Positions 26,828-27,924 of a DNA stretch of 43,749 bases are shown here, one piece after another (position 1 is the stretch's first letter; every line of letters begins with the position of its first letter). Origin of the DNA: an uncultured Litoreibacter sp. (lineage in GTDB: Bacteria > Pseudomonadota > Alphaproteobacteria > Rhodobacterales > Rhodobacteraceae); NCBI GenBank assembly GCA_938030665.1, contig CALHHY010000099.1:1-43749 (forward strand). The letters run 5' to 3'. The notes beneath the pieces were generated by a model. The model searched no databases and was not told where the DNA came from. It was given only the letters and a program-made list of their open reading frames with translations. A program made the translations under genes and the position numbers.

Positions 26828-26870
26828 ATTGCGTTATTGCGACCTGGCGCGATTTTTGCGCAATATTGCG
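26828..26870. promoter_or_regulatory. Candidate Lrp operator between LysE and Lrp genes
   Basis: Four ATTGCG half sites lie in 43 bases: forward at 26828-26833, 26836-26841 and 26865-26870, and reverse at 26859-26864. The last two form the perfect 12-bp palindrome CGCAATATTGCG (26859-26870) that ends 5 bases before the Lrp start. Lrp proteins bind as multimers to such repeated half sites, so this is a plausible operator for autoregulation and for control of lysE. Confidence 0.6.
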
Positions 26871-26875
26871 GCGTG

Positions 26876-27319
26876 ATGGATCAGTTAAGCGAAAAAATAT
26901 TGCAAGCGCTGGAGCGCGATGGCCGGATCAGCAATCTTGATCTGGCGGAGCAGGTCGGCCTGTCGCCCTCCGCCTGCCTGCGCCGCGTTCAGGATCTGGA
27001 ACGTCGGGGGGTGATCAAAGGCTACCGCGCCGTGCTGGACCGCGATCAGATGGGGGCAGGTTTTGCCGCCTATGTCACAGTGGGGCTATCCGATCATTCG
27101 AAAGCCAGTCAGGAGGCGTTTGAACGCTCCATCGGTCGGGCGCGCGAGGTTCGGGAGTGTCACAACATTACCGGCGCGGTCGAATATCTGCTGCGTGTCG
27201 AATGCGCGGATCTGGCTGCCTACAAGCATTTCCACACGGAAATTCTGGGCACCTTGCCGCAGGTTAATGCGATCACAAGCTATATTGTTATGGGCTCCCC
27301 CAAAGACGAGCGGGCATAA
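26876..27319 (+). CDS. Lrp/AsnC family transcriptional regulator
   Basis: The 147-residue DNA-binding protein has an N-terminal winged helix (ILQALERDGRISNLDLAEQVGLSPSACLRRVQDLERRGVIKGY) and a C-terminal RAM (amino-acid-binding) domain (about 65-147). The longer frame from 26837 is rejected because MDQLSEKIL is the family start. It is divergent from lysE and probably senses the exported amino acid. Its stop TAA (27317-27319) lies inside the T-run of the terminator serving the opposite-strand sRNA array, so the two transcription units end in the same place. Confidence 0.9.
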   Translation: MDQLSEKILQALERDGRISNLDLAEQVGLSPSACLRRVQDLERRGVIKGYRAVLDRDQMGAGFAAYVTVGLSDHSKASQEAFERSIGRAREVRECHNITGAVEYLLRVECADLAAYKHFHTEILGTLPQVNAITSYIVMGSPKDERA

Positions 27320-27356
27320 AAAACGGTGGTACCAAGGGAGGATCGGCACCACCGTT
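27318..27356 (-). terminator. Rho-independent terminator of the DUF1127-sRNA unit
   Basis: On the minus strand AACGGTGGT pairs perfectly with ACCACCGTT (9 bp, 17-base loop), followed by T at 27323-27318. The loop contains UCCUCCC, so the same hairpin is both terminator and fourth anti-Shine-Dalgarno element. The T-run overlaps the lrp stop codon on the opposite strand. Confidence 0.8.
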
Positions 27357-27486
27357 CTTATTGCCACGGTCCCACCTGGGAGGAGGAGTAGGTCGGACCG
27401 TACGTGCACCAAGCCTTGGGAGGAGGTAAGGCGTTGGTGCGGTTTGCGGCGTCCATCAATCGGGAGGAAATAGGGATCGCCGCAAA
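27318..27486 (-). ncRNA. CcsR/cuckoo-type sRNA array: four hairpins with anti-Shine-Dalgarno loops
   Basis: Downstream of the DUF1127 gene on the minus strand are four consecutive hairpins. In plus coordinates the stems are 27443-27451/27478-27486 (9 bp), 27406-27417/27428-27440 (12 bp with one bulge), 27366-27377/27390-27401 (11 bp with one mismatch) and 27322-27330/27348-27356 (9 bp). Each loop on the minus strand holds UCCUCCC, and the two middle loops hold the full CCUCCUCCC. This is the pattern of the CcsR/cuckoo sRNAs of alphaproteobacteria, whose CCUCCUCCC can pair with ribosome binding sites; in Rhodobacter sphaeroides four of them are cotranscribed with a DUF1127 gene under RpoH control. 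Here four hairpins may equal two two-hairpin RNAs. The last hairpin plus a T-run at 27323-27318 acts as terminator. Confidence 0.85.
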
Positions 27487-27489
27487 TTC

Positions 27490-27696
27490 TTATTTCGTGT
27501 GCGCGGCCTCATAGGCGATGCGCTTGATCTCGGAGCGGTGAATGCCCAGGTCAGCAAGCTCGCGACCGGAAAGAGCATTCAGCTCGGTAAAAGTCGTGCG
27601 GTAGACTTTGGCGCGAGCGGCGCGTTCGGCCAGATCGGCATAGACGCCACGCAGACGGTCAATCAGACCGGATTGAGTATCAGAGATATAGGCCAT
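27490..27696 (-). CDS. DUF1127 small protein (CcaF1-like)
   Basis: The 68-residue basic protein is MAYISDTQSGLIDRLRGVYA at the start followed by the DUF1127 (YjiS-type) motif FTELNALSGRELADLGIHRSEIKRIAYEAA. Members bind RNA; in Rhodobacter sphaeroides the DUF1127 protein made together with CcsR RNAs (CcaF1) acts in RNA turnover and stress. That function is carried over from the homolog. AGGAG lies 9 bases upstream of ATG at 27694-27696; a start two codons earlier leaves no spacing to it. The first of the four sRNA hairpins begins 3 bases after the stop. Confidence 0.88.
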   Translation of the reverse strand: MAYISDTQSGLIDRLRGVYADLAERAARAKVYRTTFTELNALSGRELADLGIHRSEIKRIAYEAAHTK

Positions 27697-27773
27697 GAGC
27701 ATCTCCTTTTCTGTGCTGTGCCCCGGTTGCGTTCTGTGCTTGCCGTGGCGGGTTATCTCTTGTTGTGATCAAC

Positions 27774-27800
27774 ATATGGGATTTTGCTGCAGCGCCGCAA
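27774..27800 (-). promoter_or_regulatory. Heat-shock-type promoter candidate for the DUF1127-sRNA unit
   Basis: On the minus strand TTGCGG (27800-27795) is followed after 13 bases by TCCCATAT (27781-27774), which matches the RpoH -10 element CCCCATNT at seven of eight positions. The -35 keeps TTG but not the AAA of the best sites. It is about 80 bases upstream of the DUF1127 start. In Rhodobacter sphaeroides the equivalent operon is driven by RpoHI/RpoHII. Confidence 0.42.
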
Positions 27801-27924
27801 TAGCCCCCGCATCAATGCTGCTATGCAGCATTTGCATGGCTTAAATCATTGATTTTAATTGGTTAACCTTGGGGCAAGATGCCTCCTATTTGGGCGGATT
27901 GTAAACGTATTACGCTTCAATATC

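Follow-up and report, generated by a model that had tools for sequence, protein, structure and literature searches.

A DUF1127 gene with an array of anti-Shine-Dalgarno hairpins and a candidate LysR-type promoter in an uncultured Litoreibacter

A DUF1127 gene followed by four hairpins

The window analysed here is a stretch of 43,749 nucleotides from an uncultured Litoreibacter sp. (GenBank assembly GCA_938030665.1, contig CALHHY010000099.1), the genome of which is 82% complete. On its minus strand, folding places four separate hairpins (H1 to H4) 3' of a DUF1127 gene, and a candidate promoter block lies upstream of that gene (Table 1). The DUF1127 frame comprises 70 codons and ends with the stop TAA at 27492-27490. 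Its second ATG, at 27696, appears to be the likelier start, because the relatives mostly start with MAY, MAF or MSY and the first ATG abuts GGAG. A Lrp/AsnC-type gene on the opposite strand (26837-27319, plus strand; Pfam AsnC_trans_reg, 65.2 bits) converges on the array, and its stop overlaps the array tail.

Table 1. Features of the DUF1127 locus and of the regulator locus (window numbering unless a locus is named)
Feature	Position	Strand	Description and basis
H1 hairpin	27443..27486	-	loop CUAUUUCCUCCCGAUUGAU; fold, alignment and covariation
H2 hairpin	27406..27440	-	loop ACCUCCUCCC; fold and covariation
H3 hairpin	27365..27402	-	loop ACUCCUCCUCCC; fold and covariation
H4 hairpin and T run	27318..27359 (stem-loop 27359-27319)	-	loop UCCUCCC; sequence and fold
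DUF1127 gene (CcaF1-like)	27490..27702	-	Pfam PF06568, 44.6 bits (cut-off 23.3); alignment
Inferred -10 CATATG	27773..27778	-	sequence; close relatives have TACATA/TAAATA in this position
Inferred -35 TTGCGG	27800-27795	-	
Second half-site TTGCGGCGCTGCAGC	27786..27800	-	fixed spacing; overlaps the inferred -35; profile
LysR-type recognition box ATGCAAATGCTGCATAGCAGCATTG	27813..27837	-	exact pattern match; place among 61 genomes; score counts
SorX/SorY-type RNA gene	L178 2400-2575 (G000:C10)		directly behind the LsrB-type regulator, LysR-type box between

The initial annotation had described four back-to-back anti-Shine-Dalgarno (anti-SD) hairpins beginning 3 bases past the DUF1127 stop, and the fold bears this out: the array has an energy of -89.3 kcal/mol compared with -53.6 +/- 4.1 kcal/mol in 200 dinucleotide shuffles, none of which was as low (z -8.7). 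In the predicted fold, gaps of 2, 3 and 5 bases separate H1 from H2, H2 from H3 and H3 from H4; in an alternative fold, H3 is one pair shorter and an extra outer helix surrounds H4. The loops are exactly as had been stated, with UCCUCCC in all four and the full CCUCCUCCC in two; the remaining two carry UCCUCCC without the full motif, and seven close relatives are likewise mixed. As for the stems, the description needs only small corrections: H1 has one bulged A and a long loop, and H4, which with 17 pairs is the strongest hairpin, runs out into UUUUUU (27323-27318). H4 is likely to double as the last anti-SD hairpin and as an intrinsic terminator. Single hairpins of this kind are not rare, since a lax scan returned 18 sites on both strands of the window, the array's four included; the array, with four of these sites within 127 nt, is the sole such cluster among the 18.

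Conservation of the array and its relation to known RNA families

A DUF1127 match was present in 34 relative genomes, and the best loci of 29 of these 34 were examined. In 28 of the 29 loci, DUF1127 is followed by an array of 4 to 15 hairpins whose loops contain TCCTCC, the exception being L032, where no such hairpins were seen; hairpins were also looked for downstream of L002 and L003, two DUF1127 paralogs of the same genome, and none was found. The longest array counted, at L024, has fifteen anti-SD hairpins in the 700 bases downstream of position 1698, behind one DUF1127 gene. Elsewhere in the genome of the window, two further anti-SD hairpin-like stretches, the second of them terminator-like, lie at 1513-1600 of L192 (G000:C1) behind a 148-codon frame that is phasin-like by reading and has no Pfam match; they score 31.4 bits with the ar14 model.

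All 8 close loci, the window counted, have four hairpins with UCCUCCC loops, so that the expected conservation of the loops in close relatives was found. Alignment of these loci gave a consensus fold of 46 pairs, at 15 of which (14 by another count) the changes are two-sided. The baseline in shuffles was 6.9 pairs, with none of 500 shuffles as high, and slid partners gave 1 to 4 pairs only; the latter control outweighs the shuffles, because eight kindred rows can beat shuffles without any structure. All 15 two-sided changes fall in H1-H3, and the variation in H4 across the 8 loci is one-sided only. The proposal that the stems are kept by structure therefore holds for H1-H3 and not for H4. Within the H1 loop, the stretch TCCTCCCGATTGAT (27473-27455) is invariant in 8/8 loci and extends past the anti-SD letters, which may point to a particular target or to binding by a protein.

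An array that starts so close to the stop codon and closes with a terminator-like hairpin could simply serve to stabilise the 3' end of the DUF1127 mRNA and to terminate it, rather than act in trans as an RNA. We consider this very improbable. A single hairpin is enough for a stable 3' end, whereas 4 to 15 are seen, and the loop letters are conserved in addition to the stems. Moreover, two loci described below, L219 and L228, combine the promoter with arrays and have no DUF1127 frame between them.

At gathering thresholds, Rfam found only a tRNA in the whole window. The best Rfam match of the array, ar14 (RF02344), reached 53.2 bits against a gathering cut-off of 58.8; ar7 gave 37 bits (cut-off 60), and the search with the CcsR model that the initial annotation had proposed stayed well short, at 36.6 bits against 65.3 for CcsR1 (RF02791). 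The sister locus L005 passes ar14 (60.5 bits against 58.8), and the control loci of Cereibacter johrii and Luteovulum azotoformans score 106.2 with CcsR1. The earlier assignment to the CcsR/cuckoo type beside a DUF1127 gene nevertheless stands, on the gene arrangement, the arrays of the relatives and the CcsR1 score of the control loci. A DUF1127 gene with CcsR-like RNAs is the published arrangement of the CIN1 locus of R. sphaeroides (PMC10253847). Judged by its letters and gene order, the array appears to be of the cuckoo/CcsR type, in an arrangement already known, and by score it is outside both Rfam families; by analogy, it probably works like the CIN1/CcsR loci. CcsR RNAs of R. sphaeroides are described as targeting flhR mRNA and acting in stress (PMC8307010), and the UCCUCC-loop motif has been suggested to pair with Shine-Dalgarno sites and to block translation (PMC3927594). 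A functional CcsR-type RNA is expected to derive from a stress-induced transcript that RNase E cuts, with CcaF1 influencing its maturation.

The window shares with CIN1 (ccaF1 plus CcsR1-4) the DUF1127 gene, the anti-SD hairpins directly after it and the terminator. In addition, the LysR-type box discussed below also stands before the C. johrii and L. azotoformans loci (14/15 letters), which serve here as stand-ins for R. sphaeroides. In these two loci (L117 and L120), however, eight hairpins are phased in twos (36, 66, 37, 79, 36, 77 and 36 in C. johrii), whereas the four hairpins here are evenly spaced (44, 37 and 45 in the window; 37 to 50 across the 8 close loci). With ar14/NfeR1 of Sinorhizobium and relatives, the array has the packed hairpins and the loop in common; ar14 differs in having three hairpins and, in S. 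meliloti, in being an RNA gene transcribed from a promoter of its own, and DUF1127 is unmentioned in the account of it seen here.

The spacing also bears on the earlier suggestion of two two-hairpin RNAs, of the CcsR1-4 kind, cut from one transcript. RS0680a of R. sphaeroides is an RNA with two stem loops (PMC3927594), RNase E cuts the CcsR precursor (PMC10253847), and the four-hairpin loci L105, L114 and L025 are phased in twos. In the close relatives, by contrast, the spacing is even in 8/8 loci and the conserved TAAG sits in the H3-H4 linker, not in the H2-H3 linker; an A/U-rich H1-H2 linker is found in some relatives as well. Neither the spacing nor the TAAG linker settles processing, but the suggestion is not supported by them, and cutting in twos seems unlikely to us.

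The promoter block and its distribution

Transcription of the DUF1127 gene may start near 27766, which would put the recognition box between about -71 and -47. Inside the box, TGCA-N6-GCAT occupies 27836-27823, about -70 to -57 from this guessed start. LysR-type activators commonly work through a recognition site together with an activation site over the -35 element, and as far as its sequence can tell, the promoter block has this layout. A profile of 22 loci from many genera reads ATGCAnTTGCTGCATaGCAGCATTG, followed at constant spacing by aTTGTGCAnnnGCAGCAT, and the bases between and around the two are poorly conserved; only the second half-site is independent evidence in this profile, because its 22 loci were picked for the box and aligned on it. 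LsrB is reported to bind the promoter of NfeR1, an ar14 RNA, in which the same TGCA-N6-GCAT lies at -72 to -60 (PMC10746234). The right part of the box, reversed (CAATGCTGCTATGCA), shares 13 letters out of 15, by visual count, with the VtlR motif CAATGCAGCCATGCA (PMC12595884). In its letters, the box is similar to the one published for LsrB/VtlR.

The box was scored at 76 DUF1127 loci after the duplicates L099 (the same stretch as L005), L100, L101 and L103 had been dropped; near copies remain, so these loci are not independent. At a score of at least 13/15, it is present in 58 of the 67 loci with arrays and in 4 of the 9 without, which leaves 9 loci with an array and no box and 5 with neither. 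Among mononucleotide-shuffled upstream regions, 3/3800 reached a score of 13. The nine array loci below 13/15 comprise three of Gemmobacter, HTCC2150, Limimaricola and four of Kaistia; the loci with the box and fewer than two detected hairpins are L112, L118, L133 and L145.

Length matters in such searches. A motif scan of this genome, allowing up to 3 mismatches, gave 502 sites and its reversed control 109, and therefore only long patterns are informative. A joint pattern returned 75 matches in 61 genomes and 1 in the reversed control: 30 lie within 450 bases of a DUF1127 match, 18 within 250 bases of an LsrB-type gene and 27 elsewhere. As it was built from both classes of site, its locating both of them is partly by construction. 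A fixed-spacing promoter pattern, made from DUF1127 loci only and allowing up to 1 mismatch, matches the window exactly (27786-27826). It found 120 sites in 116 of the 292 genomes of the order, with 0 in the reversed control; this strict pattern is absent from the other 176. Thirty of the 120 sites were examined as loci, among them L246 (identical to L014, which was used in the pattern) and three near-identical pairs. In 30/30, at least two same-strand hairpins lie within 800 bases downstream, whereas two hairpins were seen on the other strand in 0/30 and upstream in 0/30.

A DUF1127 frame lies between promoter and hairpins in 28 of these 30 loci, 19 being recognized by regular expression and 9 by reading; seven of the nine read frames were put to Pfam (all except L235 and L238) and 7/7 matched. 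In the other two loci, L219 and L228, no DUF1127 frame was seen between promoter and array. The L219 array spans 1487-2250 on the plus strand, and L228, on the minus strand, has two array units in tandem, each with its own LysR-type promoter. These two loci suggest that the promoter is tied to the RNA and not to the protein.

A LysR-type regulator, its neighbouring RNA and a proposed circuit

As a stand-in for LsrB we used the Kaistia LysR-type gene beside trxB, because lsrB/vtlR is placed behind trxB in the literature (PMC7486931), and the comparison covered trxB-adjacent genes of this kind. In the family to which the window belongs, 36 of 37 genomes hold a single strong match to the Kaistia gene, the exception being G011, which is 79% complete. 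The reciprocal best match of the Kaistia gene here (3e-81; next 1e-30) is the presumed LsrB ortholog at G000:C10:7714-8574 (L178), which has about 45% identity to it and the domains HTH_1 and LysR_substrate. In the tree, the regulator groups with the trxB-adjacent types with support of 94/92, just below the starred level, and branches among the other LysR rows are long; fifteen further LysR-type genes are present in this incomplete genome. No LysR-type frame lies beside trxB in this genome (L064), where the divergent neighbour of trxB is of Lrp/AsnC type; a place next to trxB is the usual one for the regulator, though perhaps not a defining trait. A hand-made LysR motif found nothing beside trxB in 30 class loci and was discarded as too strict; with the Kaistia gene, tblastn gave a relative of at least 41% identity in 15 of those 30. 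At class level, 4 of the 10 genomes that have the regulator and 0 of the 14 that lack it contain an exact box match, a co-occurrence that is weak evidence because the genomes without the regulator are mostly small.

Directly behind the regulator, the RNA of this genome scores 57.1 bits with the SorX model (cut-off 46.6), and 4 of 5 scanned loci pass SorX; in C. johrii, the RNA behind the regulator is SorY (115 bits, cut-off 111). Regulator loci numbered 23, of which 21 came from the family matches and two from the reciprocal search. The SorX/SorY core CCTCCCTGTTGGACT stands behind the regulator in 22 of them, and a box of at least 13/14 letters (four positions free) occurs at 20 of them as a raw count. 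An Rfam scan at E 0.01 detected no RNA behind the Kaistia regulator gene. The strongest reason for taking the LsrB-type regulator as the binder of the box is that its own gene has one of the same type beside it.

In the LsrB/VtlR-AbcR circuit of Rhizobiales, too, a LysR-type regulator is followed directly by an RNA gene and a similar box is found; DUF1127 genes are reported among the Brucella targets, with a homolog of these in Agrobacterium. Here, unlike in that circuit, the neighbouring RNA is of SorX/SorY type, the regulator is away from trxB and the DUF1127 target bears the array. LsrB has been described as apparently unique to Rhizobiales (PMC11975290). Among the matches listed in our literature search, which did not cover the cuckoo paper, no work was found joining CcsR/cuckoo or SorX/SorY RNAs with a LysR regulator. 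A text search for CcsR, LysR and promoter gave no match, and the matches listed for SorY and LysR were PMC11089165, with both in its reference list only as far as that source was seen, and an unrelated pathogen locus.

With the same array, the promoter might instead be read by RpoHI/RpoHII alone, the palindrome being the site of a factor other than the LsrB ortholog. In R. sphaeroides, ccaF1-CcsR is described as having an RpoHI/RpoHII promoter, and the passages concerned name no LysR regulator (PMC10253847); SorY is listed among RNAs under RpoE, RpoHI and RpoHII (PMC8307010). Both kinds of control can coexist, as AbcR1 of S. meliloti is LsrB-driven and AbcR2 RpoH1-driven (PMC8844928). The likeness of the box to the published LsrB/VtlR box and its recurrence behind the LsrB-type gene itself (20/23 loci) speak against sigma-factor control alone, and so does the two-site arrangement, a layout generally known from LysR activators. 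We give control by these sigma factors alone little credence; sigma-factor and LysR control may act together.

We regard it as likely that the locus is a CIN1-type operon in which a LysR-activated promoter gives a DUF1127-hairpin transcript and an anti-SD RNA. From the parts seen in the DNA (hairpins, terminator-like end, conservation, box, LysR-type gene and RNA neighbour) we infer transcription, pairing, the binder and the stress signal. A single transcript would encode a CcaF1-like DUF1127 protein and carry a 3' tail of four anti-SD hairpins, the terminator last, and this tail, whole or cut, would serve as a small RNA with exposed UCCUCC loops that pair with the ribosome-binding sites of mRNAs and block their translation, probably in stress if R. 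sphaeroides is a guide. Activation of the promoter would come from a LysR-type regulator, with the LsrB/VtlR ortholog as the likeliest candidate, bound to the box (about -71 to -47) and to the half-site over the -35 element. The same regulator probably drives the SorX/SorY-type RNA behind its own gene, which would couple the two RNAs.

For Rhodobacterales as a whole, we think it fairly probable that an LsrB/VtlR-type regulator is the common switch of the SorX/SorY-type RNA and of the DUF1127-cuckoo arrays, both of which have exposed CCUCC stretches and have so far been assigned to sigma factors, that the promoter follows the array and not the protein, and that the whole is the counterpart, in this order, of the rhizobial LsrB-AbcR/NfeR1 circuit. 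The array itself is of a known kind, and the conserved LysR-type promoter before such arrays is the less expected part. If it is read rightly, regulation of the CcsR and SorY RNAs becomes directly testable in R. sphaeroides, a standard laboratory organism, and the promoter sequence would allow such arrays to be located with no need of an RNA model. A regulator of symbiosis and virulence in rhizobia and Brucella would then be linked to the stress RNAs of marine roseobacters.
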